A stretch of 64,000 nucleotides of DNA. Origin: Craspedostauros australis (taxonomy: Eukaryota > Bacillariophyta > Bacillariophyceae > Mastogloiales > Achnanthaceae). Numbering within the stretch: position 1 is the first letter of the stretch; the number at the start of each line of letters is the position of its first letter. The DNA is taken from contig JAMXDE010000043.1 in the NCBI GenBank assembly GCA_026770025.1, positions 310,001-374,000 of the forward strand, read 5' to 3'. Shown in pieces: positions 15,374 to 59,832 of this stretch. Both the position numbers and the translations under genes were made by a program. The notes under the pieces were generated by a model, which worked only from the letters and a program-made list of their open reading frames with translations, did no database searches and was not told the DNA's origin.

Positions 15374-17074
15374 ATGAACAAGCTGGCCTCCATCGTGGTG
15401 CTGCTCGCAGCAAGCACTGCAAGCGCCCAATACTTGAATCGTTTCAACTACGATGAGACCGTGACGCGCGAAGACGGCTACAAAGACTACGAGCCGAAGG
15501 ATTGGAAGAGCATCAGCTGCAACGAAGGCAGCAAACTGGACGAGTGCATCGGATACCCGGACAAGTGGAAGGAGGGACAGTGGTGGTCCATCAAGGAGAA
15601 CTACTGCCGCTGGTGCCCCGCGGAGGGCAACTCGTGCGGACGCCACCACCAGTCCCCCATCAACGTGCAGCGTTACGAGAGTCTGTGGGGCAACCCAAGA
15701 CACAAGGAATGCTACGACTGGCATTGGATGAAGTACATTGACTCGTCCTGCAGCATCCAGGACCTGGAGCGCACCCGCTCCTTCACCGTCGAGCGCTTCG
15801 CTCTGCGCGTCAAGCAGCCCATCATCCACAGCAACGACGGCTTCAAGCTGGACTGCGTCAGGCCAGGCCTCGGCCGTCGCTTCGGCCGCATCGACTACAG
15901 CAAGGGATTCTCGCAGTGGTGGTTCCTCTCCCACATCGACATCAAGCTCCCCTCCGAGCACACCCAGGACGGCATCCGCTACGATGCCGAGATCCAGCTC
16001 TACCACTTCTACTCGCAGCCGCCGGAGGTCTCCAGCACCAACAACCAGATGGGAACCGTCTCCATCTTCATGGACGTCTACAAAAATGCCCCACCGTACC
16101 GCGAGCTCGACCGCCTCATCTGCCAGTGGCGCAGAGAGGAGGAGCGCGTGCGCTCCGAGTGCGGACTGCCGCCCATCGAGCCAAACTACGGACCCTGCTT
16201 CCCCAACAAGCGCAGCAGCGGAGCCAGACGCAACATGCGCGGTGCCGACGCCGACGCCGACGACATTGAGGTTGAGGAGGGCATCAAGACTGCCAAGACC
16301 AGCGACAGCACCCCGCACGGCCACGTGCACTTCGACACTGTCAACGACCTCCTCATCTACAACCATCAGTACCACGACGAGCCAAACATCACCCAGGTCA
16401 AGCTCCACATGGACGACGGCAACTGGGACGAGGAAGAGGAGAAGGACTGGGATGCATACATCCAAGCTGCCTCTGACGAATTCAAGGCCTATGAACAGGA
16501 CTACGCCGCATCCAAGGCCGAGCACGGCGAGGAGAAGACCATCGAGGAGATCGACCACGACAACCGCCGCCGCCTCGTCGGTGGAGACGAGATCCAGTGG
16601 TTCAACTACTTCCCCATGCTCGGCGTCCGAACCGAGTACTACCACCGCATCTCCGGCACCCAGACCATCCCACCATGCTACGGAGTCTTCATCGGAAGCC
16701 GTAAGCAGACCAACCACTGGCGCATCCTCAAGGACCCAATCCGCATCCACGAGCGCCAGCTGGCCGAGATGCAGCGTCTCATCCGCGAGCGCGTCTCTCC
16801 AAAGGACTACATCGTTGAGCATCTGCAGTGCCAGCCGGACACCGCCGCCAAGGTCGACAGCGACGGCAAAGTCGACGTCACCCGTCCGCTCCAGGAGACC
16901 GACGTTATCAACTACGCACGATTCTGCGAGTGCTCCGACTGGGGTTCCAGATGGCCAGAGGACCGTGCCTGGTGCCGCGGAAACCGCAACAACTACACTC
17001 GCTTCTACGAGAACATTTACAACTTTGAGACCGACGATATCTTCGAGAAGCCACCCAAGCCCCCGCAGTACTAA
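15374..17074 (+). CDS. Secreted alpha-carbonic-anhydrase-like protein lacking zinc ligands
   Basis: Single-exon protein of 566 residues with a clear signal peptide (1-18, ending ASTASA). The alpha-CA fold is recognisable from QSPINV (93-98), a block ending in LPSEHTQDG (192-200) and TIPPC (431-435). In catalytic members the sequence before SEHT is HxH and the later strand reads xExHxxH. Here those positions are D189, K191 and Q208 (HIDIK; AEIQLYH), so all three zinc-binding His appear replaced, while the Glu and Thr of the proton relay remain (E195, T431). About 170 acidic residues are inserted between the two halves of the fold. There are many Cys, consistent with extracellular disulfides, and N-glycosylation sequons such as NIT and NYT. 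Predicted non-catalytic, perhaps structural or CO2/bicarbonate-sensing; that role is inference. Confidence 0.85.
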   Translation: MNKLASIVVLLAASTASAQYLNRFNYDETVTREDGYKDYEPKDWKSISCNEGSKLDECIGYPDKWKEGQWWSIKENYCRWCPAEGNSCGRHHQSPINVQRYESLWGNPRHKECYDWHWMKYIDSSCSIQDLERTRSFTVERFALRVKQPIIHSNDGFKLDCVRPGLGRRFGRIDYSKGFSQWWFLSHIDIKLPSEHTQDGIRYDAEIQLYHFYSQPPEVSSTNNQMGTVSIFMDVYKNAPPYRELDRLICQWRREEERVRSECGLPPIEPNYGPCFPNKRSSGARRNMRGADADADDIEVEEGIKTAKTSDSTPHGHVHFDTVNDLLIYNHQYHDEPNITQVKLHMDDGNWDEEEEKDWDAYIQAASDEFKAYEQDYAASKAEHGEEKTIEEIDHDNRRRLVGGDEIQWFNYFPMLGVRTEYYHRISGTQTIPPCYGVFIGSRKQTNHWRILKDPIRIHERQLAEMQRLIRERVSPKDYIVEHLQCQPDTAAKVDSDGKVDVTRPLQETDVINYARFCECSDWGSRWPEDRAWCRGNRNNYTRFYENIYNFETDDIFEKPPKPPQY

Positions 17075-19398: not shown

Positions 19399-21193
19399 CT
19401 AATTGCGTGCTGGGTCCACGCTGAGCAAGCTGGTGGTGTCGATTCCATTGTTCATCATTTCCTCGAACACATTGCGGAAGTCCTCCAACCACAGGTTTCC
19501 GTTGTTGACGTACTCGGTGAGCTTGCCGCTCGTGCTGGCAACGCCGCAATCCGCAGGGCCGAGGTTGTCATTGTTGCCAGCGAAGTTGCAGGTCACGAAG
19601 CCATCCTCATCGATGGATCCTTCGAAGTCGTATGCCAACGCAAGGTCGGCATTGAGGAAGAAGGTGTTGCCGCCGCGCTGCAGGTTGCGGGTCCTACCAC
19701 CGCCGCCGCCGCCATTGAATCGCCAAATGGCGTTACCGTTGGCAGCTTCCTGCAAATTGAAATCACCGTCACGCACACGGTCCAAGAACTGATTGTCCAG
19801 TCTCGTTTCGTTCGGCACCCAACGGCCATTGACCAGGCCGGAGTTGCCGACGTTGAATCGCCCGCTGTGTTGATGAATAAAGAGGTGGATGAAGAGGTGA
19901 ATGGACGTATTGATAGATCGAGAAACGATGCAAGCGCGAGAGTTGGTGAGAGTGGTTTTGTCGTCGTAGACATGGACGGTACCTCGTTAGATGATTGCTG
20001 GCGGACTCGCAGCTAACATTCACACACCAAGATGGATCGACTTACAGCGTATGTGCTCCCATGATGGCAACCACCTGGTCGGAATCGAAACTGAAGTGCT
20101 CCATGAAGTATCCCAGCAAGCTTTCGGTGGTGAAGTTCACTCCTGGCAGCTCACGATTTGGACCGCCAGTCTCAGAGAAGCCAGCGGCGTCGCATGTTGG
20201 CCTACCGTACAAGTTGAAACGGTAGTCGAAGTTGTTGTTGGGCTGCATGGTTTCGGCAGCCGTCAATCCAGCCAACGCCCACACATCAGTCCGAGTGAGG
20301 TATTGCGAGTATCTCTGCACGAGTGGACGCAGGGCCTGGATCGGCGTGAGCAATCCGTTGTTGTCTTGGTTGTTAAGATTAACGCATCCGTCACACATAT
20401 CGACGCAGTCATGGAAGCTGAGACGGACGAGCTGCGGTCCAATACGGTTGCTGTTTCGGACCATCGCAGCGATCTCGCTCTTGAGCTCATCGACTGCCTG
20501 TCTTGGAGATTCGAACGGGCCATCGCTGCCATCGTCTTCGTCGCCAGTCTCGTCGGTGTCGACATCCGCATCGACATCCGTATCGGCATCCGTATCGACA
20601 TCCGTATCGGCACCCGTATCGACATCAGTGTCGGCGTCAGTGTCGACATCTGTATCCGTATCGGCATCTATATCGGCGTCGGCGTCCGTATCGCCATCGG
20701 CGCCTTCATCGTTGCCTGCGTCAACGTCAACGTCAACGTCTGCATCAGTATCGACGTCAGCGTCCGTATCGCCATCGGTGTCTGCATCGTTGCCTTCATC
20801 ATTACCCTCATCTCCTTCCACGTCTTCGTCACCGTCGTTGTTCTCGCCATTATCAGTGTTTTCGTCATTGGTTTCATCCACGCTGTCGTTGACATCGCCA
20901 TCGACATCGATATCCTCGTCGCTGACATTACTGGTGGAGCTTCTTCGTCCACCACGGCTACGACCACGGCCACGGCCACCGCTGCGCCCACTGCCGCGTC
21001 CACCACGTCCTCTACCTCGCTGCAAGGCACGGTCCCCACGAAGGGATCCACTGCGGACATCGGCAGTATCTTCGTCGCACGGAACAGCAGCATCTCCGTC
21101 GTGTGGATTCTCACCTCCAGCGGTGTAGCCAAGGAAGGGGCATGCCTGGGTGGCAACGGCGGTTGTCAGCAGAATGGCAAGGTTGAGCTTCAT
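19399..21193 (-). CDS. Secreted heme peroxidase with RGG and polyacidic insertion (copy 1)
   Basis: Exon 1 is 21193-20046 and exon 2 is 19864-19399, with a 181-bp GT-AG intron that splits the Leu codon of the proximal motif GAHTLGRF; 537 residues. A signal peptide (1-17) is followed by CPFLGYTAGGENPHD, shared with the second peroxidase. Residues 57-83 form an Arg/Gly run and about 92-225 an Asp-dominated repeat (DTDADVDTD-like units). The plant/fungal-type peroxidase domain follows, with distal Arg257 and His261 (LVRLSFHDCVD) and proximal heme ligand His381 (GAHT). The family uses H2O2 to oxidise phenolic, halide or other substrates. Unlike copy 2 it ends soon after the catalytic domain with no anchor, so it is predicted soluble and extracellular. 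The start is the ATG with the best signal peptide, not the upstream in-frame codon at 21268. Confidence 0.85.
20540..20810 (-). repeat. Asp-coding minisatellite inside the first peroxidase
   Basis: Imperfect tandem units (GTATCGACATCC-like on the + strand) encode alternating Asp with Thr, Val or Ala in exon 1. Units vary in length and order, typical of slippage or unequal exchange. The frame is preserved throughout. Confidence 0.85.
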
Positions 21194-23033
21194 CTTTCGT
21201 TGGTAAGATAGTGGTGAATATAGCGTGATAGAGTACGTGTACTTTGGTTTGCGTTTGGGTTTGACCAAGTCTTGATTTTGTGAGATGAAACTGATACCCG
21301 AAGCTGAAGAAGTGTCGCTCTGGTCTATTCTGCTGCAATGTCACTGGGCTTGAAGCCCGATCTTGCAGGAACACACAGGTATTTCTCCACATCATCAAAT
21401 CGACCGTGTGTGAGGAAGACACGAGAAGCAACAACGATAACGTCGTAGATTAGCGTTGATGACAAAGCAGACATCCACCTGAATGGAATATTTCGGAAGG
21501 AGTGGTCCGAGAGCAAATAGCACATCAGAGAACATATTGCATACTTGCAGTATGTACCACACGTACGAGTTACTCGTAGGCATGGGACAATGGGCAGAGC
21601 GATGACAGTTCCAGCTTCGCACGATTGCTTGCGTAGCTCGTATACACGGAGCAACACTATATTCGGCATGCAAGTCACAGCGCGACGAACTGTCCGGTCT
21701 GCAAGTTGGGAATCACTCTGCAGAGGAACCGGTGAATTCCACCAACACCCTCGCAGAAGTCCACATTTTCTCCGCACCGGAGAATCTGTGGCGCGTGTTG
21801 GAGTCAGGTGTGCTTGCGGAAATCACAGAACGATTGCTGTCACAATGTACCATCGGCATGTATCCTGTCAGGCAAAGCAAGGCCTTTCCGCGATGCGAAT
21901 GCACGATCCTCCAATGACGCGAAACGTGGCAAACCAGGGGGCTGAAAACTCTGACATCGCAATTAATAGAATATTTCACAAGGTATCTCAATACCACATG
22001 CGATGCGGCGATTGCTCGACAGGATGCGATGAAGCACGATGTGAATACAACATGAATTCTGAGGTCTTTCGGTTGGTGGCACCATCGCAACGGATGCAAC
22101 CATCCCCAACCATCGCTTGACGTTGCCACATCTGCAGGAGACGATGCCACCGATGCTGCTCCGAATGTCACCAGTTTCCAAACGGGACGCGGGCAAGGGA
22201 GCTTTCGTATCGTGAGTACATTCGCAACAAGTTTGTGGCACGGAGCCCGGACTGCAGCTTCTCTAGCTTACGTACGAGTACGATCCTCCGCCGTCTTTCG
22301 ACCTTTGGTTGCTGGCACCGTTCACAATTGTACCAGTATCATCGCAAAGACTCGATCGTGTGAAGGTGCCATCCCGAGAACGTACGCAGTCACCGGCGTT
22401 GCGTCGTTGGTCTTGGTCGTGACAACGCTCTGCTATGAACGGGACGGGACAAGTTCCGTCAACTGACACCTAAAGATTCACCATGACCTGGCTCGCCGAC
22501 TATGATGGTTCGTGGAATACCCGTACCATAGGAGCAACCAACAGAGGAATACAACCACGGGGCGCCGAAACAGCGAGGTGGCACCGAGAAGCCTCCCCTC
22601 GCGTTGTGATGTGAAATTGACGTTATTTTCACGTTTCGACGCCTCGAACATTCAAAAACAGAAAAATGAAGTGTACACATTTCCACGTAACTCCCAAGGT
22701 TCGCTTCGCATTTCAGCTCTCATGCTCGCGACCGAATGCTTCAACCGTTCTGATTTCCGCAACTCCAGCCAGCGCGTTCGAATGTTTCCTCTTGCTCCGC
22801 TTGCGAGGTGATCGATGACTGTCGTCGGCACACAACAAGGAAGCCCTTTCTGTGCTGATCAGCGATGGGTCTCGTTTTCATCAGCGAAGGGCCGAAACGA
22901 TGACATCACTTCTCGTCGCAATCCCTTGCAACCAGCCGATGGTCTCTCCACCGATTCGAAATTTGATCATTGCCAGAGTGGCGAGTGGTGGCATCTCCAG
23001 TTGACCCACAATGGCACGCTCCTCGGCTGACAA
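21194..23033. other. Intergenic between peroxidase 1 and EF-hand gene A
   Basis: No supported gene. A near-palindrome TACGAGT-T-ACTCGTA lies at 21564-21578. From about 22920 the sequence resembles the 3' flank of EF-hand gene C (about 29400-29511), with nearly identical stretches just before the stop codon, marking the edge of a duplicated or converted tract. Confidence 0.5.
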
Positions 23034-25197
23034 TTAAGTACTACTTGGCACATCATCTTCCTCCTTCTCTTCTCCTCCAGGATTCTCAGGATCAGTTGTC
23101 GCTGCAGCATCGGCAGCTTGGCCTGCAGCGTCTTCCTCGATCTGCGACAGGCGCATGGAGAAGCGACGGGACAAACGCTCCGCCATCAACGTGCGATTGT
23201 CACGAGCATTGTCATATTCCTCATGACACTGCACAGTCGAAGAAGCAAACCAAAGATCGTGGCGGAAAGGGATGGATGGTTTCGGAACAAAGACATCATG
23301 TCAGATGTGAGTACGATAGCGTGACGAATGAAGGAATGGCTGAATGGATGGCTGAATGGTTGGAAACACAGATACACCATACATGCACACCATCATACCA
23401 GCTGCGCATACCATCCACACATACCACCCACTCATACCACATGAAACATACCGCGTCACCCCACAGAACAGGAAGCACACTCACCTGACCCATGAAAGCA
23501 CAGAACTCAAGGAAGTCGACATATCCGCTGCCATCGGCATCCATCACTGCCCACAACGCTTCGAAGTCATGACGGTTCATTTCAACTGCCTTTCCGGAGC
23601 TCAAGAACTCCCACATGCCCTCCTTCGTGATGTTGCCAACGGAGCTCGCACGTCGGTCACTCTTGTCAGCCGTGGATTGGGCGTCGATCTTCTGGAACTC
23701 ACGGGCCAATGCCGCAGCATCCATGCGTCTGGCCGGTACGCGGATGCTCATGGTCTGTGCAACATGTGTGGCGAATACGGCACGGTATCTCTTTGCCTGT
23801 TGTTTGTTGTAGATGTAGACTGCGATGGCGACTATGATGAGGAAGAAGAGGACACCGCCGATGGTGAATCCAGCGATGATTCCTGTCTTGACGGGCGTGG
23901 TTGGCTCTTGGTATGGGTTTGTGGCGCAGTTGGGGTCGAACTGTGTTGTCCATGGATTGAATGATCGATTGATCGATTGGTGGAATGATTGAGAGAAAGA
24001 GGCGAAAGGAGGAAACAGAATTGAGTGAATCAGCAAATCATGATCGAGAGGTGATGAGAACGACTGGAGCCAATGGGAAGACACTCATGGCTGCGCAAAA
24101 TGGCGCCTCGGCGCATTCTCTGCTGCTGAACGTACCTGACACCACTGCTCTTCGGTTGGGAAGAAGCCTGTGGCGGAAGAGCCGACCATCGGGACCTGCA
24201 CCTGGACAAAAGGTGGGATACCGAACTCCAGAAATGTTGTCTGGATACCTTCGACGAACGCTTGCTCCGTCACGCGTCTGAATGTACATCCTTGCGAAAA
24301 AGAGAAGTTGTTGCCAACGTAACTCGCACTTTGCTCACGGACGGTGTTGCAATCTTTGTCAACACAAGTAATGGACGTTGTCAGAAACGAACCTGGTTCA
24401 CCTTCCTGAGGAGTCTTGGTGAAGAGGGTGTCGTCGGCAACTGGGAAGGTGATAGTTGTGTCTGTATCCGCGAAGGGGTCGACTGTGATATTGAAGGTGG
24501 TCTGAAATGGCAATGTAATCGCCCTGCCATCCAATTCGAAACTCGATGTGCCGTATACGTCAAAGGCTCGGGAGATGCCGAATGGTGTGCCTCCTTGAAC
24601 TGGTGGAAAGAAGGTGTATCGATGGTTGACGTTTCTCGTGCCCTGGATTGTTTGGTTGATGAACACCCTGTACGGGAACGATCCAAGTATCAACATTCCT
24701 CCATCTGCCGTATCGAATGATAAGCTCTCCGCTGGTTGATCGTCAGCACCGTAGCTGTACATGTCGCACGTGTAGTATCCTGTGTATGCCCTCTTTGGTA
24801 CAAGTAGTATGGCGAAGAAGATTCAACATTTTGGAGTGAAGCGAATGGGAAATTGTCATAACGATCGTATCGGATGAGAAGGTGGGCAACAGCGTGGCGT
24901 TGACCGTCATCAGAAGCGCGTATGTAAAGTATCATGCCGGCATCTTGGTCATACTCTGAAACACCCATGCCATTCTATTCTCCCATTTTGAGTTGCACAA
25001 CTTACCCACAGGCTGTTTTGATTCTCCAAATCATAGTTGGCGCCATCCGCGTACCGGACATCGGAATCGGAGAGACATGGTTCACGCCATGGGTCACCAC
25101 ACTTGGCGGCCCAAGCTGTTGTCATACGGCTCATGATGATCGATGTTGCAAGCGTAATAGTCGAGGCGACGACAGGTCTGATCACGGGAAACTTCAT
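23034..25197 (-). CDS. Receptor-like membrane protein with cytoplasmic EF-hand, copy A
   Basis: Four exons, all joined in phase 0: 25197-25006, 24792-24136, 23940-23485 and 23228-23034; 499 residues. Exon 1 gives a signal peptide (to about residue 31) and the motif KCGDPWREPCLSDSD. Exon 2 is a Cys-containing ectodomain with NQT and NIT sequons (TGYYTCDMYSYG at its start, PTEEQWCQ at its end). Exon 3 holds FDPNCATNPYQEP, one membrane helix (about 303-327), a basic stop (NKQQAKRYR), a degenerate and then a canonical EF-hand loop DADGSGYVDFLE (417-428). Exon 4 is an arginine- and glutamate-rich tail. Exon 1 (MKFPVIRP..) differs from the MTSRF start shared by B and C, whereas exon 2 resembles C. 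Predicted type I surface protein with intracellular calcium sensing; ligand unknown. Confidence 0.82.
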
Positions 25198-26239
25198 GAT
25201 GACGATTTTCGGATTGATGTTTCGTAGACTGTTGGATGATTGTGGGATGTTCGATGAGTGGATGAAATCTGGTTTTGGGATTGTCTCAACTTGATTTTGT
25301 GGCACATGATGATGATGGCAGCGGCGACGGCGTTACAAAGGGTGCAAGCTTCCTCACTTTTCCCCACTCTGCCCTTTCCGAACAGGAAAAAGTGTGAAAT
25401 GCACAGCTCAAGCGCAAGGAGCGACACCGACGAGTCCATTGGTGTCTTCGGAAAGCCAGGTGATTGCTTTCTTGTTCCCTTCAGCTCTTCCCCTTCAGCC
25501 CAGACTGGGTCTAATGCGCTTGGATCTGCCTCAAGCACAATGCACATCACGTCACTGCTTGCGGCATCTTGTTTCGGTCCGACTTTGCCGAATTGTGGAG
25601 CTCTTCCCTTTGTGTCGTCGTTCGTGTGCACAGCTCGACGAGGATTCATGTTGCGTCATGGACGTTGCGCAGGCAGCAAGGAGGTTTGATGAAATTCACG
25701 TTTGCGTTGTGGACGGACAAATTCAAATTTAACGCTCAACGAGCCAGTCGGACGACAACTCACCTGTCGCTCTTGGCGACCTGCACCCACGGATCCAAGA
25801 AACAGTGACACGATGGACTGTTTTGAGACAACGAGGAGAGAGAGAGAGACATCGCATTCAGCGCAGCAAGCTCAGAATGACATGTGCATACAATAGTACT
25901 CTCTGCATCTAGCTTATGCTTTGGTTATCGAAGTTCCAACGGACTGGGGGCTCTTGGTGACATGCACATCGCCTGCTCTCCTCGTCCACAAAGTTGATTC
26001 GAGCACACACATTCACTGATGAAATGGAAAATGGATTTCGTCCCGCACGACCATGGCTAGCGAAAATAAGATACACGTCATGTTGGACATCGCAATCGGG
26101 CCGCCGCAGATTCCATCCAGTACGGAGGTCATGATTCGGTGCCATTGGATGCTCTCATGAATAAACAGTACTGCGATCGCCGAAGTGTTGGAACAAAAAA
26201 TTGTTCGCGTTGTTAGTGTTTTGGAGATCTTGGATCGCT
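25198..26239. other. Spacer between EF-hand genes A and B
   Basis: About 1 kb holding the promoter side of A and the 3' side of B. A minus-strand frame at 25194-25649 (151 codons) overlaps the A start and shows no domain or signal peptide, so it was left out. A short GA tract lies near 25830. Confidence 0.45.
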
Positions 26240-28361
26240 CTAGACCTCTTCGTCATTCTCCTTGGCTTTTCTGACATTCTCGGTCGAGTCCACTGCACCT
26301 GCGCCTGCTTCAGCAGCTGCTTGGCCCGCAGCGTCTTCCTCGATCTGCGACAGGCGCATGGAGAAGCGACGGGACAAACGTTCCGCCATCAACATGCGAT
26401 TGTCACGAGCATTGTCGTATTCCTCATGACACTGCACAGTCGAAGAAGCAAACCAAAGATCATGGCGGAAAGGGATGGATGGTTTCGGAACAAAGACATC
26501 ATGTCAGATGCGAGTACGATAGTGTGACGAATGCATGCATGCATGGACGGATGGCTGAACAGCTGAATGGTTGGCAACACAGATACACCATACACGCACA
26601 CCATCATACCAGCTGCGCATACCATCCACGCATACCACCCACTCATACCACATGAAACACACGGCGCCACCCCACAGAACAGGAAGCACACTCACCTGAC
26701 CCATGAAAGCACAGAACTCAAGAAAGTCAACGTATCCGCTGCCATCGGCATCCATCACCGCCCACAACGCTTCGAAGTCATGGCGGTTCATCTCGACCGC
26801 CTTTCCGGAGCTCAAGAACTCCCACATGCCCTCCTTCGTGATGTTGCCAACGGAGCTCGCACGTCGGTCACTCTTGTCAGCCGTGGATTGGGCATCGATC
26901 TTCTGGAACTCACGGGCCAATGCTGCAGCATCCATGCGTCTGGCTGGTACGCGGATGCTCATGGTCTGTGCAACACGTGCGGCGAATACGGCACGGTATC
27001 TCTTTGCCTGTTGTTTGTTGTAGATGTAGACTGCGATGGCGACTACGATGAGGAAGAAGAGGACACCGCCGATGGTGAATCCAGCGATGACTCCTGACTT
27101 GACTGGTGTGGTTGGCTCTTGGTATGGGTTTGTGGCGCAGTTGGGGTCGAACTGTGTTGTCCATGGATTGAATGATCGATCGATTGATTGGTGGAATGCA
27201 TGAAGGGAAGGGAGAGATAGCAAATGAAAGAAGATCGGGAATGTGAGAGGGGGGAAGCAGCGGCAGATTTGCGAGGACAAAAGGATCGCCGATACCAACT
27301 GCACTACGAGAATATATGAACCTTGGCATCTGTAGAATACAGAATATATGTACTTGCCTCACACCATTGCTCCTCTGATGGGAATACACCAGTGAGCGAA
27401 GTGTTGGTCATGGGGACCTCGATGCGGAATGCTTCAGGGACAGCGAACTTGTTGTAGTCGCTCCTGATGCCCGCAATGAACTCGTCTTCTGTGATGCGCT
27501 GGCTGTTGCAGCTCAAGAAAAAGAGCAACTTGGAGTTGTTGTAAACAGAATTGATCTCGCTTTGAGCACTGCAGGCTGCATCAAGGCATGTGATCGTGGT
27601 CACGAGAGTCAAGAAGCTCCGACCTGCCACGACTCCTTTGGTCACAGTGGTATCATTTCCAACTGGGTATGTGATCGTGTTTTCTTCACCTGCCTGACGG
27701 ACAGGGAAATCCAGGTTTTGTTGCAAGGGCAAGGTGACAGTCCTCCCATCCAGCTCAAAGGTTGATGTTCCATAGATGTCCAAGGCCTGCGCCAGCCCGA
27801 TTGTGCCGACCTCTGGTGCTGGGGGCAGGATTCTGTATCGATGAACGAATGTTCTTGTCCCTGAGTATGTGTAGTTGTTGTACATCCTTGATGGGAACCC
27901 ACCCGTCAAGAATGTTCCTAGTCCAGCGATGGGGATTGCTTCCACCATGAGAGGCTGGGAGTCTGGTCCGTAAGTGTACGAATCACAGACGAAGAATCCA
28001 GCGGAGACGGACTTGAGAGAGAGAGAGAGAAGCAGAAGCATGTGATTGATATGCGTGGGGATACGCCAAACAGCAAATTGGTCACACACCGGAGAATAGG
28101 ACGAAAGGTGAGGTGAGAACGAAGGGTGTGGGCAGTACTGGCAGAGGTGCAAACATGACCATGCTCCGTCGTTGCGTTGCGAAGACGTACCAAGATTCCT
28201 GGCTGATCGGCAACGTCATACTTGGCGTTGTCCTTGTAGCGAGGATCTGAATCAGAGAGGCAGGGTTCGCGCCATGGATCACCGCATTTGGCACCGGCCA
28301 CCATGTTGCCTGTCATGGCGGCGGCGACGGCGATGCTTGCGATGAGGAAGCGAGAGGTCAT
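26240..28361 (-). CDS. Receptor-like membrane protein with cytoplasmic EF-hand, copy B (GC-AG intron)
   Basis: Exons 28361-28191, 28011-27358, 27151-26696 and 26431-26240; 490 residues, with the same architecture as A and C. The signal peptide comes from MTSRFLIASIAVAAAM (cleavage near VAGA), followed by KCGDPWREPC. The ectodomain is the most diverged of the three: it starts SVSAGFFVCDSYTYG and lacks many A/C-shared residues, but keeps FELDGR..TLP and ends SEEQWCE. The membrane helix (about 295-319) and EF-hand loop DADGSGYVDFLE (409-420) match A and C. The donor of intron 2 reads GAG|GCAAGT where A and C have CAG|GTACGT. Using it restores the phase-0 junction WCE-FDPNCATNPYQ, so a GC-AG intron is the simplest model. 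Intron 1 ends in a long (CT)n tract. The tail differs at its end (AGAGAVDSTENVRK). Confidence 0.8.
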
Positions 28362-29511
28362 GCTGAATTCGTTGGGCTTCGCGTATGGTATCGTACACTC
28401 GCGTTGCGGACGGTGGGTTTGAGTTGCGAAAGGGATCGGAATTTGTGACAACAAACTGAGATCTTGTGGTTGTTCGTGGCCTCCACAGTGTCGGGGCATC
28501 TCGACGTACGCGACTCATGCGGCCTCACTTGTGATCCCGCTCTCTCTCTCTCTCTCTCTCTCTTTCTGACTCTTTGCCTCTCTTGTCGACATCATCACCA
28601 CAACGAGCGTCATCCTGCCATACCCACGCCAAAGATCGTGCTTGCCCCGAACATCAATGTCGGGACTGGTATAGATGCAGGAGCGAGGATCGCAGGGTGA
28701 TGTCACTCGACAAAGAGGTGCGTGTTTAGATCGTAGAGAGCCCATACCATCAACCTGGCATCACCGATGCCTGTAATGCTCTCATCCAAGGCAGATCAAA
28801 AGAATGAATCGGGAGATTCCATTCCGAATTGACCGGTGGACATAACGAAATGATAGATTTGAGTTTCCAGCATGGGTGAGCGAATGTGTACTGGCGACCA
28901 TTGCCTGTGCCGCATTCTTCATTTCGCAAGCAACAAGTGTCTTGTTCTTTGCGTTTGCGCACGCGTAGAGCATCAAATGGCCACAATCAAAACACCACCC
29001 TGACCTAAACCACGACACTTGAAGAGGTTATGGTAAAATTAAGCTTCTTGCATTACTTTGTGTTCACATTCACGGCACTGAAGATCCAACATCGACTACT
29101 TCGACCAACTTCGGGTTCGGATATCAACAAGTGCGATGTTGTGGTGCCTTGAGCATTTGCGACGGCTTCTTCGCTGGCCCACATCACCAAGGCATCACTT
29201 CAAATGGCTTCACATCATGTGACATCGAAGACACGGTGTTGCATAGCCGCAATAGAAAATGGTGTAGATTCAATGCCTCGACTTGACTTGTCTATTCCAC
29301 TATTATATTCTAAGAACTTCTCATTGCGGAATGTGCACACATTCAGCTGCGCATGCGCTTTTGCCCAACGTGTGGCCATGAAACGACATCTTGCCATCAC
29401 CCCTTGCAACCAGCTGGTTGCCCCATCATCAACTCGGAATTTGATCCTTACCAGAGTGGCAAGCGGTGGCATCTCCAATTGACCCGCAATGGCACGCTCC
29501 TCAACTGACAA
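28362..29511. other. Spacer between EF-hand genes B and C
   Basis: Promoter side of B, with a perfect (CT)n run at about 28541-28562, then unremarkable sequence to about 29400. The last 100 bases are homologous to the 3' flank of gene A. No gene seen. Confidence 0.45.
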
Positions 29512-31622
29512 TTAAGTACTACTTGGCACATCATCTTCCTCCTTCTCTTCTCCTTCAGGATTCTCAGGATCGGTTGTCGCTGCAGCATCGGCAGCTTGGC
29601 CTGCAGCGTCTTCCTCGATCTGCGACAGGCGCATGGAGAAGCGACGGGACAAACGCTCCGCCATCAACATGCGATTGTCACGAGCATTGTCATATTCCTC
29701 ATGACACTGCACAGTCGAAGAAGCAACCAAAGATCGTGGCGGAAAGGGATGGATGGTTTCGGAACAAAGACATCATGTCAGATGTGAGTACGATAGTGTG
29801 GCGAATGCATGAAGGAATGGACGGATGGCTGAATGGTTGGAAACACAGATACACCATACCAGCTGCGCATACCATCCACGCATACCACCCACTCATACCA
29901 TATGAAACACACGGCGCCACCCCACAGAACAGGAAGCACACTCACCTGACCCATGAAAGCACAGAACTCAAGGAAGTCGACATATCCGCTGCCATCGGCA
30001 TCCATCACCGCCCACAACGCTTCGAAGTCATGACGGTTCATCTCGACCGCCTTTCCGGAGCTCAAGAACTCCCACATGCCCTCCTTCGTGATGTTGCCAA
30101 CGGAGCTCGCACGTCGGTCACTCTTGTCAGCCGTGGATTGGGCGTCGATCTTCTGGAATTCGCGAGCCAATGCAGCGGCATCCATGCGTCTGGCCGGTAC
30201 TCGGATGCTCATGGTCTGTGCAACACGTGCGGCGAATACGGCACGGTATCTCTTTGCCTGTTGTTTGTTGTAGATGTAGACTGCAATGGCGACTACGATG
30301 AGGAAGAAGAGGACGCTGCCGATGGTGAATCCAGCAATGACTCCTGTCTTGACGGGCGTGGTTGGCTCTTGGTATGGGTTTGTGGCGCAGTTGGGGTCGA
30401 ACTGTGTTGTCCATGCATTGATTGATTGGTGGAATGATTGAGAGAAAGAGGCGAAAGGAGGAAACAGAATTGAGTGAACCAGCAAATCATGATCGAGAGG
30501 TGATGAGAACGACTGGAGCCAATGGGAAGACACTCATGGCTGCGCAAAATGGCGCCTCGGCGCATTCTCTGCTGCTGAACGTACCTGACACCACTGCTCT
30601 TCGGTTGGGAAGAAGCCTGTGGCGGAAGAGCCGACCATTGGGACCTGGACTTGCGCAAATGGCGGCACACCGAACTCGGCAAAAGAAGATTGGACGCCAT
30701 CGATAAACTCTTGCTCCGTGATACGTCTTTGAGTGCACCCCTGAGAGAAAGAGAAAACTGTGCCGATGTAAGTGGCGCCTTGCTCGCGGACTGTGCTGCA
30801 ATCCTCATCAATGCAGGTTTGGCTTGTCGTCACGAAGGTTCCCGGCGCTCCCTCTTGCGGGCTTTTGGTGAAGAGAGTGTCGTCGCCAACTGGGAAGGTG
30901 ATGGTCGTGTCGGTATCCGTGAAGGGATCGACGGTGATGTTGAAATTGCTTTGAATTGGCAGGGTGAGCGCCCTACCATCAAGCTCGAAACTCGATGTGG
31001 CGTACAAATCGAAGGCTCTCGAGACACCGAATGGCGTGCCCCCCTCAACTGGTGGGAAGATGAGGTAGCGGTGATTGATGGTCCTGGTGCCTTGGGTGGT
31101 TTGATTGCTGAAAACCTTGTACGGAAAGGCTCCCACTATCAGTGTTTGTCCGTTGAGGCCGTTCACCCCATCGAGCACGAACCTCGGGAGCGGCTGATCA
31201 TCAGGACCGTAGTTGTACATGTCACACACGTAGTACCCCGTGAACTTTTCCTTTGGTGTTTGGGCGGAGAGAGTTGATCATCGTGGATGGAAGCATAATA
31301 CGCAACAGGGCGTCAGATGATGATATGGACAAGGCAACGGCGGAGTCAGGCCGCAGGTACCGCCCGGACGCCTGGTATTCGATTGCGTCGTCTCAAGCGG
31401 ACCATGTTGCTGCTGAAAGAGGATCGGATTCTCCCCCGCCGTGCAACGTACCCACAGATCGTTTTGGCTTCCCAAATCATAGTCAGATCCACTCTTATAT
31501 CGGATGTCGGAGTCGGAGAGGCAGGGTTCACGCCACGGATCACCGCATTTGGCACCGGCCGCCAAGTTGCCCGTCATGGCGGCGGCGATGGTGATGCTTG
31601 CGATAGAGAAGCGCGAGGTCAT
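29512..31622 (-). CDS. Receptor-like membrane protein with cytoplasmic EF-hand, copy C
   Basis: Exons 31622-31452, 31250-30585, 30401-29946 and 29706-29512, all phase 0; 495 residues. The signal peptide (MTSRFSIASITIAAAM.., cleavage near AAGA) and first exon match copy B, while the ectodomain in exon 2 (TGYYVCDMYNYGPDDQP to PTEEQWCQ) matches copy A. The membrane helix is at about 299-323. The canonical EF-hand loop DADGSGYVDFLE is at 413-424, preceded by RRASS, a basophilic-kinase-like site. The 17-base tract around the ATG is shared with B. From the last part of exon 2 through intron 2, exon 3, intron 3, exon 4 and the 3' flank the sequence is nearly identical to A, introns included. Predicted type I membrane protein; function inferred only from topology and the EF-hand. 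Confidence 0.82.
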
Positions 31623-32233
31623 GCTGAATTCGTTGATCTCACGGAGGATGAATTTCTGGCCAGATCAGAATTTGTGAGAACATCGACAGTTCGTTTCCGA
31701 ACTGCGGAGCTTCAATGCGCCTTGCCGACAACTTGTTGTGGTCTTGATGTGGTTCATCAGTTGCGGCTGCGGTTGTGGCTGCCACCGTCACTGTGCTTCA
31801 ACGCCCACCATGACAATAGCGCGTACACACGGCACCCATCAGGAAAAGAAATTGGATCAACAAATCCGTGTCCACTGTTCTCATTTCCCCGGTCTTCAAC
31901 ACTCCGTCATGGTGGGACATGGTGTCAGCTCTCCACCAATCAGTGCTCGCGCTCCTTGGACACTGAACAAGCGGGGAAGAGACAAGACGCACAAAGCTCC
32001 TACGATCGTCGAGCTTTCCCCTCAACTGCACCATCGTTCTGTGATGTGTTACTAGCACACCAAATCACGCGTTCGTCGCTGTGCCGATGTTTGTCACCTC
32101 ACGCCAGAAACCGTGATTCGTGAACACGAGAATAGATACGGGGTTACGGCAAAAGCGTATTATTTCATGTTTACAGGGAGCTGATCGTGGCTTCGCCTTC
32201 GCCATGTTGGTCATTGTTGATCTTTTGTCATGA
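31623..32233. other. Spacer between EF-hand gene C and peroxidase 2
   Basis: Promoter side of gene C and 3' side of the second peroxidase. No gene, repeat or RNA seen. Confidence 0.45.
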
Positions 32234-33944
32234 TCAAACAAAGAGCAAATATACAATCGATTGGAGGGCCACCAGAGTGCTCAACCCAACCAGTGGTGAC
32301 GATGACGATGTCGGAGCTGCTGTCGGAGCTTCTGTCGGGGCTGCTGTTGGAGCTGCTGTCGGGGCTGCTGTCGGAGCTTCTGTCGGAGCTGTTGTCGGAG
32401 CTGCTGTTGGGGCTGCTGTCGGAGCTTCTGTCGGAGCTGATGTCGGGGCTGCTGTTGGAGCTTCTGTCGGGGCTGCTGTCGGAACTGCTGTTGGAGCTGC
32501 TGTCGGGGCTGCTGTTGGGGCTGCTGTTGGAGCTGATGTCGGGGCTGCTGTCGGGGACCCCACAGCAACTGTGCCGACAGCAGTCAAGTCGGTCATGTTG
32601 AAGCCGTTGTTGGTCATCTTTTCGAAGACGTTGCGGAAATCCTCCATCCACAGCTCGTTGTCGTTCACATAGTCGTTCAGCTTGCTGCTGGTGCTGGCGA
32701 CGGGGCAGTCCACAGCGCCGAGGGTGGCATTGACTTGAGGCATGTTGCAGCTCACGACGCCGCCAGCATCCATGAATCCATCGAAATCGTAGGCCAACCC
32801 GAGATCGCAATTGAGGAAGACAAGCAAGTCGCCCGCCTGCAGGTTGCGGCTTGTGCCGTCACGGTCGATGCCGCTGTTTCCAATGTACTGCCAGATAGCG
32901 GCCCCGTTGGGCGCCTGCGCCGCAACAAAATCTCCGTCCCGCACACTCTCAAAGAATTCATTGTCCAACGTCATTGGGTCGGCCACCCAATTGGTGCTGG
33001 TGATGGGGCCGGACGGCGCAATCGTGATTTGTCCGCTGCGTACATGGATGGATGGATGGACAACAGATGGAAAGAAATTAATGGTTGGTCGAGAGTCGAT
33101 GGAGGCAGAAATGGTGAGCGAGACTCTTGTGTCGTGCACATGTCCTGCACATGACATGCATGTGTGATGCATTTCATTGGATGCTTGCAAGGATGTTGGC
33201 AGAGCCTGTACCTACAGTACGCATTCAAACTCTCACGAGAACAGAAAGCTCAACTTACACTGTGTGTGCTCCGTTTATGGCGACAGTCTCGTCAGCGGTG
33301 AGATCGAAGTGTTGCTTGAAGTAGGCGACAATTTGTTCGGTGGTAAGGTCCACTCCTGGCAATTCCCGTGGTGGACCTGCGACGTCGGTGTAGCCTGCAG
33401 CAGCATCGCATGTTGGCCGACCGAAGTAATCAAATCGGTACTCGAAGTTGTTGTTGGGCTGCATCCCTTCCGCTGCGACCAATCCAGCCAGCCCCCAGAT
33501 ATCTGTGCGGGTGAGGTATTGGGAGTACGTCTCCACGAGCGGACGAAGCGCCTCGATTGGAATGAGCAATCCGCGGTTGTCGCTGTTGGAAAGGTCGATG
33601 CATCCATCACACACATCGACGCAGTCATGGAAGGCGAGACGAATGAATTGCGGTGCAAGGCGGTCGCCGCTTGCGATGAGGTCAACAATATCCTGTCGCA
33701 GCGCGTTGACTGCGTCGCGTGGGGTCGGGAAGTTGAGCGGGGTGACATCATCGCCAGTGGCTCGGCCAGATGTATCCTGGCTCAATCCACGGGTACGACG
33801 GGCGGACCCATTCACGGCATTGTCTGTGCGAGGAGAGGCAGCATCGCTGTCGTGGGGGTTGTCACCGCCCGCGGTGTATCCGAGGTATGGGCATGCCTGT
33901 GCGGCAGCAATGGTTGCGAGGAGAGTTGCGAGGCTGGTCTTCAT
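32234..33944 (-). CDS. Secreted heme peroxidase with mucin-like stalk and GPI-like tail (copy 2)
   Basis: Exon 1 is 33944-33259 and exon 2 is 33035-32234, with a 223-bp intron at the same codon phase and place as in copy 1 (GAHT V|G); 495 residues. Signal peptide 1-17 and CPYLGYTAGGDNPHD as in copy 1, but without the RG and Asp insertions. Distal Arg102/His106 (FIRLAFHDCVD) and proximal His227. After the catalytic domain (to about 380) come about 80 residues of Ala-Pro-Thr repeats (TAAPTSAPTAAPT-like), a likely O-glycosylated rod, then SSSS and an uncharged hydrophobic terminus (LVGLSTLVALQSIVYLLFV), which looks like a GPI-anchor signal. Predicted to be displayed on the cell surface. It is the closest relative of the gene at 19399-21193, and the two flank the EF-hand array. 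Confidence 0.85.
32311..32557 (-). repeat. Minisatellite coding the Ala/Pro/Thr stalk
   Basis: Imperfect 12-base-type units (GGAGCTGCTGTC, GGAGCTTCTGTC on the + strand) encode APT/AAPT/SAPT repeats of the second peroxidase. Frame is intact across all units; the number of units is likely polymorphic. Confidence 0.88.
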
Positions 33945-34110
33945 GCTGGATCTTCGGTGATTTGTTTTCGTTTTTGTTATTGTTTTGGCGTTTGCGTTTT
34001 CTTTGGTGTTTGCTTTTGCTTTTGCTTTTGTTGTTGTTATTGTTTTGGCGTTTGTTATTGTTATTGTAATTGTTTTGGCGTTTGCGTTTTCTTTTGTTGG
34101 TGTTTGATTT
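33945..34110 (-). repeat. A/C-rich 5' leader of peroxidase 2 with repeated motif
   Basis: Directly upstream of the ATG, the + strand motif TGTTTTGGCGTTTG occurs three times, at 33981, 34041 and 34071. The first and third copies match for over 20 bases. (TTTTGC)n and TTGTTATTG units lie between. On the coding strand this is an A/C-rich leader. Probably 5' UTR or core promoter. Confidence 0.6.
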
Positions 34111-36361
34111 TATGAAATGTGAGTGGTGTGTGACGAATTCGGCATTCCCTCGCTGGCATCTCTCCGAGTGGTTGGTGCCCTTCTTCCGTGCCGGCCAGCA
34201 CCAACCTGCTGCCTGACGGAGATGGATACGACTCGAGGAGGAGGATTTGCAAAGAGGCGAGTGTGGCGACGGTGATGCGAAAAATGTACGACTATCCATC
34301 GTTGCCATCCTGTGACGAAGAAACTGGGAGGAGGTCACTTGTTGATGCTTCTCGCGTGTAGCCATCTGGTGATCTGCGATGGGCTCGATTGAGTCTCGGA
34401 AAGCGGAAGACCAGACCAACCCAAGATGTTTGAGTGGCGCGGTTGCTCTCCGCATCGGTCCACGATTGTGACAAGATCACTTTGTGTGGAGATTGCGTGA
34501 TGGAGCATAGAGTACACGCGCGTGCTCGCGGCTTGCCTGTATGCATCGACAGTGCACACTCATGAACACATGTCACCATTTGGTTTGGTTTCGCCGCCCA
34601 ACGAAACACGATTTGTGGCCAAAACGAAACACGAATTGTGCTAATCTTGGGTGACATGCAGATGAAAATTACTGCATACGCCGCACGAGTGTGGAGTGTC
34701 ACCAACGGATGCAGTGGATACCTTTTCTTCATCAACCGCGCGAGTTCCGGTGACGGTTTCTGCACCTCTCGCCTGTTGTGCACACATATTTCGGTTGTAG
34801 TAGACGACGTATGATAGACCCTAAATAGTATGCTATCTCATTCTTGCCTTCAAGTCGTATCGAACAGGGCACCCTCTCCCTGGAAGCAGTGCGTTTTACT
34901 CTCGCTCTCTCTCTCCAGACAGGCAAGAGCTGATCATTGATCTTCTTTGCGACTACACAGGGCAGATCGATCGGTATCTACCAGAAGAGAGAGGTTCGAA
35001 GACAATACACCGCAGATTACTCTGGTTTGCGGTGGTGAAGATCCTTGGTCTTGAGATGTCTCTTTTGTTTCCTTGTTGTGAATGCGAGATGTTGAAGACG
35101 ACATGCGTTATTTTCACGTTAACAAGACATATTATGAAATAAATATTATATCGCCGCAACTTTCAGTACAGTGAACTTGTCCACGTCGTCTTTCCTACAC
35201 GAAAACGTGAATGCTTCGCTGTTTGAAAACGGATACTGCAAATCCTCGTTGGCCTTGTAGGAATCGGTCTTCGGTGACCGGGGGTGACTTTGGCGAATCC
35301 GAAAGCGAAACAAATTGTGACGTACATCGACACGAACACAGACCTGGACGCAGACCACGAGCACCGTCGCGCTTCTGCTGAAAGGGATACGAGCTAGGAA
35401 TGGCACCGGAATGCCTTGATGCGCGGTGGGATGCTCGCAAGCGACACGGACACAGCCATCGCCGGCGGAGCATTATCTTTCCATCGTCCTAAAAGTGGAT
35501 GAAAGGAACGCGCAACCATGCCGTCGGCGAAGAACATGTGTTGAAAAGCGCCGATGCGCACGGAGGGTCCTCGCTGCAACCAAATTCACGGGCATTGCAC
35601 CGAGTAATGAAGCGTCAAGACCCACTTCAAATAGTGGGAGGAAAGCCCCTTGCGTTGCGCTCCAAAGGGGCTCAAAACAGCAAAACGCATTGGCAGGTGG
35701 GACGGAAAACGGAGGGAGAGGTCAGCGAAAGGGAATTTTGTTTGTTTCCTCACCCTCGACGTACTCTTACAGCAGGTTCTTGCGCAGCGGCACAACTCGA
35801 TCCGGCTCATCTCGTGAAGGAAAGCAAGACTGGCCGACAGGGTAATAGGAGCGGGCAATCATGTCGACCCCGTCAATCATTCTTTCTATCTCTGTTGCTC
35901 AGCGGTGACAATTGTGATATACTATGGTTGTTGGAAATGAAGGAGAAAAGCCGACGAACCGACTCGTTGTCCGATGGCATTGGGCCTCGTAGGACGCAGA
36001 CATGGGCAAGCTTCCGGAATATAGTACCAGTCTGCAACTCATGTATCTCGTGACTGCTGCAAGGAGCGTGCCCGCTTCCATTACATGGGTTGAAGTTGTG
36101 GAAAGAGCTGACTGGCGTGACTCCACCAACCATCCGACTGCCGCAAGGGTGGAATTCAATCGCCAGTCTCCTCGGAAGTCGTACTGATCAACTCCCTCCA
36201 ATCCTGGGCCGCAGCCGCGACTGTCGGATATGCTACGAGTAGCAAGTATGGTCCCTTTCTGCTTGTATAATAGCATGGAACTAACAACTCATTGCGAGAC
36301 AACCAACCAGCAGCGATTATAGTACTCTATCTGATTGAAACAACTGATTGGCCCAAATGCG
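34111..36361. other. Intergenic, 2.25 kb without a supported gene
   Basis: Several frames of 140-184 codons exist (for example 35499-36053 +), but none has a domain, signal peptide or sensible composition. A CT-rich stretch lies near 34890-34920. No structured RNA or repeat noticed. Confidence 0.4.
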
Positions 36362-38593: not shown

Positions 38594-39214
38594 CTTGCGA
38601 ATGGATCGTGCACGGCGAGTTCGTCTTGTCGTCGTTAGAAGCAGAGAGTGTTGAGCGGAGCGGTGAGATTGTCTCCAACTTCCGAATTTCTTGAATGAAT
38701 GCTGATTGGTATGCACTTGGATGGTCTCCAGCAAGTGTACTCCTGTACTCTATTCTGCTTTGGAATGCAAGATCAGGGTATGATCGTAGAATGGATTGGA
38801 GCGGTTGTGATGCCAGATGAATCTGACAAGATCGGGCAGGTTGTGGTTGTTGTTTGAGGTTCTTGGATTTTGTGTCAAGCGCGATCCACATTTGTGGTGG
38901 TTGTTCCATCTGGTGACGTGTGCAATGTTCCTTCTGACGTTTTTCGAATGGTTCAAGCAATCGACTTTTCCGATCAAAACTTGGAACAAGCTACAAATCA
39001 AAAGTAGAGTGCTGCAACACAGCATCCAAACAAGCGCAATTCAAACATCAGAATAGAATAGTTGGAATAAAGCCAAGAATTGAACATATTAGTCCTCATG
39101 CGTGCGAGTATTGGTATTGGTCGATCGTACATACATACCACCACCATTCGTTCATGTTTGATTCATAGCACTGCTCCAAAGGACACTTGCATTGGAACGG
39201 ATGCTGTCCATCTC
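38594..39214. other. Intergenic between the S2P-like and sulfotransferase genes
   Basis: Upstream region of the S2P-like gene and downstream of the next minus-strand gene. No coding or RNA signal. Confidence 0.45.
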
Positions 39215-58331: not shown

Positions 58332-59192
58332 GCCACAGGCCATCGTCATGGCTATCAATCCGCCGATCGTCCTTCACGTCATGAACCCAATCGAGCACTT
58401 GCACAATCGGTGCTGTATGTACTATTCTACCATTTACCATACCCAAATAACTGAAATAGACCAATATGTAATAGATCAAACAAAACAATATCCTTCGTGC
58501 CAAAAGTGATTGCAGTATACTCTATCGTACTTTTGCATTGACGCACGGCCGCGATGCTGTTCGTCGTCGACAAAAGATGCATGCACAGGAGGAGAATACA
58601 CTGGCCGAATGCAGGTCGAAAGGTCGCGTCAAGTAGAATCGTGTCCGGACTGCTGGCTGGCAACAACATGTTCTTGATCGTCTGGTTGTTGTGCAGCACC
58701 TCACGTTCGAAAGGCAAGGAGGCATCCCAAGTTCCCTCGAGAGAAGAGCGATGTCACGCTGCGGTACCATGCCAATCTCTTCCTAACGTACAAGTAGACA
58801 GACAGAAAGCGAGAGAGAGAGAGCGAAAGCCACCCGGCTGGCCTAAACCGAAGAACGATGGAATGAAGGAAGGGGTTCCGGAGTTGACTGGGCGAAGAAG
58901 GAGACGTCTGCTGTGCCATTGTTCAACTTGACGTTCAAAGAAACAGTGGCGGGCATCTCTCTCTCTCTCTAGAGAATACCATAGTACGACCAACACACAA
59001 ACTGGTAGATCGAATAGTTCTTGTTCGTTGGCCACCTTCTCTTCGATACGGAGTGTAGTGGCACGCCTCTATTGATGGAGAACAGAGCCTGGGCCCAGAT
59101 GATGGAAGCTGTAAGGTTGTTGAAACAGGTCTCAATCCTGTTGCTCATGTAGACCGGGTGGGGCTACAATTGGTTCACTAAGTTAGTTGTTC
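58332..59192. other. Intergenic up to the copia LTR
   Basis: No gene. Short GA tract at 58808-58824 and CT tract at 58957-58970. Ends at the inferred edge of the LTR. Confidence 0.45.
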
Positions 59193-59780
59193 TGTTATCC
59201 CGGGTTTGTAGGTTGGTGATTCCTCTTTCTCTGCGATTTATGAGCTCGACTTGTCTGTCAAAAGTCAACTCATGTCAATCTCCAGTTGCCCTGCAAACTC
59301 GTGTAGTTCTGACTCCTATTGAGTCAGATCATTTCCTAATTCCTAACGATCCACCGCGATGTGAATCCTCGACCTGCGCCAGTTTCCCGCAGTTCGTCGT
59401 GTTGTTGTCTTATTTGGTCTTGGTTGTGTCAGACAGAGATTCAGGAACTCGATTGCGTCAGTCTCTAATCCTGACGTCTTACCTAAGTGGTTCCTCTCAT
59501 CCATATATATCTGGTCTTGCTCCTCTGCTGACGTTCATGCTCTGCTCCTCACGTTCCCGCTGACGTTAGATTCCTCTCGATCGGTAGATTATTTGTTTCT
59601 GAAGATTCCGAGATTCTTTCGTCATATTCGAGGATTCTGCTGTAAATTTCCGTTTTCGGGTTTGGAACATTTGATCGTGAGAAGGAGTTCTGGACAAACA
59701 AATATGTGTGAGCAGTCATTTGCGCAACTGTGACCCCTACCGGGTCATACACGAATCTGAATATTCGTCATGTTCCAACA
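59193..59780 (-). repeat. 3' long terminal repeat of a Ty1/copia element
   Basis: Read on the minus strand, a purine-rich tract (AACAGGGAGAG) follows the polyprotein stop. It abuts TGTTGGAACATG at 59780, the classic TG start of a copia LTR. A matching end, GGGATAACA, occurs at 59193, giving TGTT..AACA termini and a length of 588 bases. A TATATATGG promoter-like box lies near 59505. The partner 5' LTR is outside the window, so limits are inferred. The 5 bases flanking the outer edge (TGTTC at 59188-59192) are the candidate target duplication. Confidence 0.7.
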
Positions 59781-59832
59781 CTCTCCCTGTTTGTGCAGAA
59801 CCTCTCCTTTCATCTCAAAATGACGTCGATTG

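Follow-up and report, generated by a model that had tools for sequence, protein, structure and literature searches.

Mosaic genes for EF-hand membrane proteins at a peroxidase-flanked locus of the diatom Craspedostauros australis, and their probable diversification by exchange of ectodomain blocks

Gene content of the locus

The stretch of DNA analyzed, hereafter the window, had 64,000 nucleotides and corresponded to positions 310001-374000 of contig C41 (JAMXDE010000043.1) of the diatom Craspedostauros australis (assembly GCA_026770025.1); the genome searched comprised 74.8 Mb in 90 contigs. Splice-aware models gave five intact genes on the minus strand, with 0 internal stops, between window positions 19399 (stop of the peroxidase PRX_A) and 33944 (start of the peroxidase PRX_B), the three inner genes encoding EF-hand type I membrane proteins (EF_1, EF_2 and EF_3). 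These models bore out a first-pass annotation that had described five co-oriented minus-strand genes, with peroxidases bracketing three membrane EF-hand proteins; the sharing of one strand by five genes (chance 2 x 0.5^5 = 0.06) was weak evidence alone. The genes were the following (window positions; ectodomain types I to IV are listed in the next section):

19399-21193, minus strand: PRX_A, 537 aa, 2 exons (20046-21193, 19399-19864); predicted secreted haem peroxidase
23034-25197, minus strand: EF_1, 499 aa, 4 exons (25006-25197, 24136-24792, 23485-23940, 23034-23228); type II ectodomain
26240-28361, minus strand: EF_2, 490 aa, 4 exons (28191-28361, 27358-28011, 26696-27151, 26240-26431); type I ectodomain
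29512-31622, minus strand: EF_3, 495 aa, 4 exons (31452-31622, 30585-31250, 29946-30401, 29512-29706); type II ectodomain on a type I chassis
32234-33944, minus strand: PRX_B, 495 aa, 2 exons (33259-33944, 32234-33035); predicted secreted haem peroxidase with a PT-repeat stalk and a hydrophobic, GPI (glycosylphosphatidylinositol)-like C-terminus

Signal peptides of the EF and PRX proteins were called by eye from the N-termini. A simple hydropathy cut-off for the leader was passed by EF_2 only, with EF_1, EF_3, PRX_A and PRX_B below it.

The membrane protein family

EF_1 to EF_3 had four exons each, separated by phase-0 introns. Exon 1 encoded the signal peptide and a AKCGDPWREPCLSDSD motif, exon 2 the ectodomain, ending in EEQWC[QE], exon 3 a DPNC stalk, the membrane helix and the EF-hand region, and exon 4 the tail. 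Each protein had eight Cys before the membrane helix, one strong internal hydrophobic helix, one canonical 12-residue loop (D-x-D-x-S-G-x-V-x-x-x-E) and two RRxS sites, which are taken here as basophilic-kinase sites; one of them may sit at the position expected of a degenerate first EF-hand, ahead of the canonical loop. EF-hand_1 (PF00036) matched one stretch per protein (E 1.4e-5 to 6.6e-7), above the curated cut-off in EF_2 and EF_3 and just short of it in EF_1 (24.8 vs. 25.4 bits), and the EF tails are predicted to bind calcium. A calmodulin-like multi-EF sensor was rejected on account of the single recognisable EF-hand and loop per protein. No kinase or other enzyme domain was found with Pfam in EF_1 to EF_3, and membership in the receptor-like kinases was rejected for lack of a kinase match. 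The three proteins are most likely single-pass surface proteins, either receptors or adhesins.

The 152-aa product of exon 3 had 24 matches in the genome at 82-100% protein identity, the next, weak matches reaching at most 58%. Two different ectodomain queries recovered these 24 loci as well, together with a separate fragment of the split copy on contig C29. The ectodomain exon (~218 aa) was paired with the transmembrane (TM)/EF exon at 24 of 24 loci, and the N-terminal Cys motif CG[DN]PWR[ED]PCL was read at all of them. The ectodomains fell into four types:

Type I, 10 loci: EF_2, C41_104, four on C34, two on C11, one on C3 and one on C2
Type II, 3 loci: EF_1, EF_3 and C41_97
Type III, 6 loci: two on C18 and one each on C38, C42, C44 and C29
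Type IV, 5 loci: two on C36 and three on C60

Same-contig copies, which are separate loci, occurred on C41, C34, C11, C18, C36 and C60; those found on separate contigs may in part be allelic. Exons 1-3 were consecutive at 22 of 24 loci in the stretches compared, and exon 4 was seen at 23. Exon 2 of the C29 copy was split by an insertion of ~6.7 kb, and ~5.5 kb lay between exons 2 and 3 of C60_123. Both loci (C29_29, with its split exon 2, and C60_123, with exon 2 far upstream) were left out of trees and of the module table, C29_29 being kept in the type III means for exon 2. Statistics on exon 4, intron 3 and the 3' flank were calculated without C2_1191, whose exon 4 was not found within 1.69 kb, and without three type IV loci. 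One intron of EF_2 (intron 2, window 27152-27357, the second donor being GC) was of the GC-AG class; a GC-AG intron 2 was present in 10 of 10 type I genes and in 0 of the 13 other loci compared. As regards a possible subtelomeric array, five of the six type III copies lay within ~50 kb of a contig end (plain count), and TTAGGG arrays occurred in the genome among the matches listed.

The ectodomain had no convincing Pfam family in the 22 of 24 copies scanned (best KinB_sensor, E 0.0013, in 5 of 22), and its best match to PDB profiles had an E of 0.18. No viral or prokaryotic relative of the ectodomain was confirmed in the viral_contigs and genome_contigs collections, and no relative of the TM/EF exon was found in viral_contigs or in the phage collection.

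Two dispersed families resembled parts of exon 3. The first was a repeat of six stretches (C14, C42, C41:179 kb, C41:33 kb, C13 and C66) with 86-93% DNA identity to each other; five of the six can be read as LDPNCAPNPDQEPPTPVKSDVIAAFT or a variant of it, with a likeness of 43-56% to the beginning of exon 3 of the receptors, and the repeat had no DNA match to the receptor cassette. The second (C71, C6, C87 and others) read NQQAKRYRA...TTKEDMWGY in degenerate-looking frames, ~28-43% like the middle of exon 3, and may consist of fragments of the tail exon that were captured or have decayed.

Mosaic structure of EF_3

EF_3 was the clearest mosaic of the family, and was divided into three parts (window positions):

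31506-32142 (outer end approximate), minus strand: 5' chassis, comprising ~500 nt of 5' flank and the signal peptide and N-terminal motif (first 117 nt of exon 1)
30450-31505, minus strand: variable block, comprising the end of exon 1, intron 1, exon 2 and most of intron 2
29112-30449, minus strand: 3' chassis, comprising the end of intron 2 with a short (ATCA)n, exon 3, intron 3, exon 4 and 400 nt of 3' flank

Identity of EF_3 to the four type I genes of C34 was 0.863-0.879 in the 5' chassis, 0.489-0.520 in the ectodomain block and 0.868-0.917 in the 3' chassis. In sliding profiles, identity changed abruptly at two points, within exon 1 following CLSDSD and ~48 nt ahead of exon 3, where the shared tract begins (the block comparison was cut 25 nt before exon 3). 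In the module table, which covered 22 of the 24 loci, EF_3 had the 5' flank, exon 3, intron 3, the end of exon 4 and the 3' flank in common with the C34 type I genes, and the ectodomain and intron 2 in common with EF_1 and C41_97. Among type I genes with exon 4 found, the two on C11, the one on C3, C41_104 and EF_2 differed from those of C34 in the end of exon 4 and in the 3' flank, which constituted a further junction. EF_2, C41_97 and EF_1 each had their own 5' flank.

The 3' junction fell in an (ATCA)n tract within the last 90 nt of intron 2. These 90 nt contained 2-13 (ATCA) units in type I (mean 5.6), 3-9 in type II (mean 5.0; 3 in EF_3), none in type III and 1-2 in type IV (mean 1.2), compared to 0.60 in random 90-mers of the regions. 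The tract may have a role in recombination.

Divergence of exons and introns

Neighbouring exons of the receptor genes differed in history. Between types I and II, exon 2 had a mean proportion of synonymous differences (pS) of 0.747 and of nonsynonymous differences (pN) of 0.401 (30 pairs), with synonymous divergence (dS) saturated, whereas exon 3 had a pS of 0.159, a pN of 0.018 and a median dS of 0.18. Exon 3 differed as little between types I and II as within type I (pS 0.153, pN 0.017). Between EF_1 and EF_2, 106 of 152 synonymous sites differed in exon 2 vs. 13 of 100 in exon 3 (Fisher p = 1e-19), and three other pairs gave the same contrast (Fisher p 2e-15 to 1e-27).

Identity of intron 3 between types I and II was 0.85 in the six C41 pairs (range 0.71-0.97) and 0.89 in 21 of the 24 other pairs, C2 having no intron 3 in its gene model. 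Intron 2 without its last 50 nt was at background level (0.46; 30 pairs). In EF_1 and EF_2, intron 3 was 94% identical and intron 2 46%, but the last 50 nt of intron 2 were 92% identical. In the control comparison of types I and III (15 of 60 pairs, from 5 of 10 type I and 3 of 6 type III loci), identity was 0.49 in intron 3 and 0.84 in exon 3; exon 3 and intron 3 are therefore free to diverge. Other intron controls were sampled at 15 of 18 pairs (II x III), 8 of 50 (I x IV) and 12 of 30 (III x IV). Purifying selection on the protein does not account for the likeness of an intron. Intron 3 of EF_2 was 97% identical to that of its neighbour EF_3, 92% to that of C11_1773 and 85% to that of C41_104, its nearest relative by ectodomain; the closeness of EF_2 and EF_3 suggests local exchange.

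Trees and selection

In the exon 2 tree each of the four types formed a single clade, and type II joined type III (98/95). In the exon 3 tree, obtained from a short alignment, types I and II were intermixed. The nonsynonymous to synonymous rate ratio (omega) of the ectodomain was 0.70 in type I (0.53-0.96), 0.59 in type III (0.32-1.07), 0.15 in type II and 0.22 in type IV. Omega of the TM/EF exon 3 was 0.10-0.23 across types (0.11 in type I; 0.05-0.17), and omega of exon 4 was 0.29-0.65. In the type I ectodomain, pN was greater than pS in 7 of 21 sliding windows (ratios 1.1-1.7), at alignment codons 11-40, 51-70, 91-120 and 151-180. These values fit diversifying or relaxed selection in type I, and perhaps type III, only.

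Peroxidases

Both peroxidases matched PF00141 above the curated cut-off of 27 bits (PRX_A, E 1.3e-15, 58.3 bits; PRX_B, E 2.5e-16, 60.6 bits), carried RL[SA]FHDC and GAHT[LV]G, and were split by a phase-2 intron within the latter, the proximal-His motif. The top PDB matches of PRX_B were named ascorbate or cytochrome c peroxidases (best E 1.9e-15; entry 3riv is presumably the Leishmania enzyme). When PRX_B was aligned to a PDB ascorbate peroxidase, the stretches of the distal Arg and His and of the proximal His, residues with established roles in peroxidases, lined up, as did the proximal-side Trp stretch. In class I enzymes (ascorbate and cytochrome c peroxidases), a distal Trp adjoins the distal His. 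PRX_A and PRX_B were not filed in class I because Phe replaces that Trp in their FHDC motif. The best PDB matches of PRX_B and the aligned key residue stretches are those of class I haem peroxidases, but PRX_A and PRX_B differ from them in an N-terminal leader, extra Cys and the distal Phe, and PRX_B also in its stalk and tail. The PT repeat and the hydrophobic C-terminus, which may be a GPI signal, were present in PRX_B and absent from PRX_A. Both proteins look like intact enzymes that share a locus with the receptors.

PRX_A had a long insert before the peroxidase domain (window 20559-21004), Asp-rich (DTDAD) and Arg/Gly-rich and built of short tandem repeats. It was not present in PRX_B or in the C8 paralogues, and it is possibly calcium- or silica-binding.

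The genome-wide search with PF00141, in which only the best candidates were scored, gave 12 matches, with 10 places outside the window; eight of these 10 places were compared with PRX_A and PRX_B by tblastn and two on C4 were left out. There was no match to PRX_A or PRX_B at C29:374 kb or on C25 (tblastn, E 1e-3), and matches on C1 and C10 were weak only. At the places examined the family had six members: PRX_A, PRX_B, one gene at C41:101, two on C8 and one on C30. PRX_A was 54-56% identical to PRX_B and 68-70% to the two C8 genes, and PRX_B was nearest to the C41:101 gene, whose two exons were located by tblastn (91% and 88%). PRX_A and PRX_B are therefore not a recent local duplicate pair. 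The first-pass description of three calcium-sensor membrane proteins with two related peroxidases held for the ectodomain, helix and EF-hand tail of the former and for the intact appearance of the latter.

The cluster was adjoined on the opposite strand by an alpha-type carbonic anhydrase with a signal-like N-terminus (PF00194, E 1e-11; window 15374-17074, plus strand). Upstream of PRX_B, on the same strand, were a site-2-protease-like M50 peptidase and a sulfotransferase (window 36362-38734 and 39215-41908, minus strand). In the genome as a whole, silicon transporters (PF03842) were extremely expanded: 32 matches each spanned 480 or more of the 513 positions, and 28 of the 32 had no inner stop; some of these matches could be alleles. 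For most diatom species 3-5 silicon transporter copies are reported (PMC10700740).

Interpretation

The preferred reading, to which a probability of about 0.7 is given, is that surface receptors were diversified by ectopic exchange of an ectodomain block on a common calcium-binding chassis. Each product would have a signal peptide, the Cys motif, a variable ectodomain (~218 aa) and, after a single membrane helix, a cytoplasmic part that hardly varies and holds the EF-hand. Dispersed copies would recombine ectopically, by gene conversion or double crossover, with the N-terminal coding motif that they share and the boundary between (ATCA)n and exon 3 as anchors. Ectodomain blocks would be swapped on and off a chassis with a 5' part (promoter, signal peptide and N-terminal motif) and a 3' part (membrane helix, EF-hand tail and 3' flank), and the same recombination would keep the tails alike. 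The outcome would be a set of surface receptors or adhesins that differ in their outer faces and have the calcium-binding cytoplasmic part in common. The products of recombination are visible in the sequence itself; the process behind them, surface location, calcium binding, a receptor role, ligands and signalling are proposed here from sequence.

Several results weigh against this reading. Type I plus II as one clade of exon 2 was rejected only marginally (approximately unbiased (AU) test, p = 0.0499). With exon 3, the AU test did not reject a II+III clade (p = 0.144), a type I clade (p = 0.236) or a I+II clade (p = 0.462). The case for exchange rests on divergence levels, introns and flanks, since the exon 3 tree alone does not resolve it. 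Fast evolution of the ectodomain is not general, as omega was low in types II and IV, and an omega below 1 in type I would fit relaxed constraint as well as diversifying selection. The GC content at third codon positions, for which pairs were sampled as for the intron controls, was slightly higher in exon 3 than in exon 2 in types I and II (0.66-0.68 vs. 0.62) and differed most in type IV (0.74 vs. 0.65), which gives no support to biased conversion. The type I 5' flank was not shared by EF_1 or C41_97, and so both junctions are found in EF_3 only. The (ATCA) tract was short, at 3 units in EF_3 and 2 in several type I genes. There is also a small chance that EF_3 is an assembly chimera.

With regard to function, it is suggested tentatively that the proteins form a recognition repertoire, for mating, self/non-self or pathogens, whose ectodomain blocks would be exchanged as units between two conserved anchors, one of promoter and signal peptide and one of TM helix and EF-hand, guided by the N-terminal motif and the (ATCA)n ahead of the membrane exon. 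An alternative that differs from receptor diversification in function only, and would have the same origin, is that the proteins are adhesins or anchors of a cell-wall or silica scaffold, in which calcium would be structural and exchange of ectodomains would tune binding to wall or substrate. The lack of a kinase or other enzyme domain in the Pfam results and the abundance of silicon transporters in the genome are in line with such anchors, but the EF-hand and the RRxS sites are cytoplasmic in the topology read from the sequence, and this alternative is considered unlikely.

The first-pass annotation had further proposed a linked surface oxidant/calcium system, in which receptors would sense damage, oxidants or partners and peroxidases would use or make oxidants. 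Such a dedicated module would be compatible with a mosaic origin of the receptors. A peroxidase adjoined 5 of the 24 receptor loci, all five of them on C41, in the window cluster and in a second cluster at C41:96-107 kb with the order EF_97, PRX_101 and EF_104 on one strand; all three type II receptors lay within these peroxidase clusters. In Seminavis, sex-inducing pheromone is reported to raise the expression of a haem peroxidase strongly, and an NADPH oxidase that contains an EF-hand domain is reported from the response of mating type plus (MT+) (PMC8027222); both would also agree with a module, should the present genes prove orthologous. However, 19 of 24 receptor loci had no adjoining PF00141 match among the best candidates scored in the genome-wide search, and no receptor exon lay beside three close peroxidase paralogues (two on C8 and one on C30). 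In addition, the second cluster matched window blocks 25205-28374 (90% DNA identity), 32513-34680 (87%) and 29052-31137 (81%). The recurrence of the peroxidase-receptor neighbourhood is explained by this shared segmental duplication, and the second cluster is therefore not an independent case. The caveat attached to the proposal, that tandem duplication alone may cluster genes, covers the linkage observed, and beyond proximity the linked system found no support. The module is regarded as quite improbable; the peroxidases would be local neighbours of the receptors, with functional coupling as a hypothesis.

A 670-bp segment of the window next to its copia-type frame (59118-59787) was 99% identical to C41:102704-103373, between PRX_101 and EF_104. 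The latter looks like a recent solo long terminal repeat inside the second cluster.

Ordinary tandem duplication without exchange, in which ectodomains diverged fast while strong purifying selection held the tail, would agree with the low omega of exon 3 and with the same-contig copies, but was rejected and is held to be very improbable because introns and flanks disagree with it: synonymous sites and intron 3 are alike between types I and II and not between I and III, and both flanks of EF_3 match the C34 genes around a non-matching ectodomain.

Comparison with known systems and significance

Plant CRK (cysteine-rich receptor-like kinase)/DUF26 receptors carry Cys-containing ectodomains on a common membrane and cytoplasmic part; the EF proteins differ from them in having neither DUF26 nor a kinase domain according to Pfam. 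Clustered protocadherins of vertebrates (PMC1852091) resemble the EF family in that their outer ectodomains are diverse and regional gene conversion homogenises the membrane-proximal part. In contrast to them, no cadherin domain was found in the EF family, its members are complete separate genes instead of variable exons spliced to shared constant exons, and in EF_3 the promoter side is also shared and the whole ectodomain block differs. A protocadherin-like locus with shared constant exons was rejected, since each receptor locus has its own exon 3. Plasmodium var and other variant surface families are likewise dispersed multicopy genes with recombination between copies; the EF family consists of a different protein, in an alga.

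As far as the tools used can tell, the receptors appear to be a new family, whose way of diversifying is of a known kind but takes an unusual form. No description of a diatom family with such exchangeable ectodomains was found in the open-licence literature searched, and one may be in print elsewhere. To our knowledge, little has been described of surface receptor families that diversify in silicifying algae, although specific recognition is required in mating, in infection and with bacterial partners. This family provides concrete candidates for such recognition. Annotators of such genomes would be led astray by trees based on nothing but the conserved tail. If the reading of exchanged ectodomain blocks is true, variation from strain to strain would be confined to the ectodomain block, expression control would be shared where the 5' chassis is common, and swap experiments could separate recognition from signalling.

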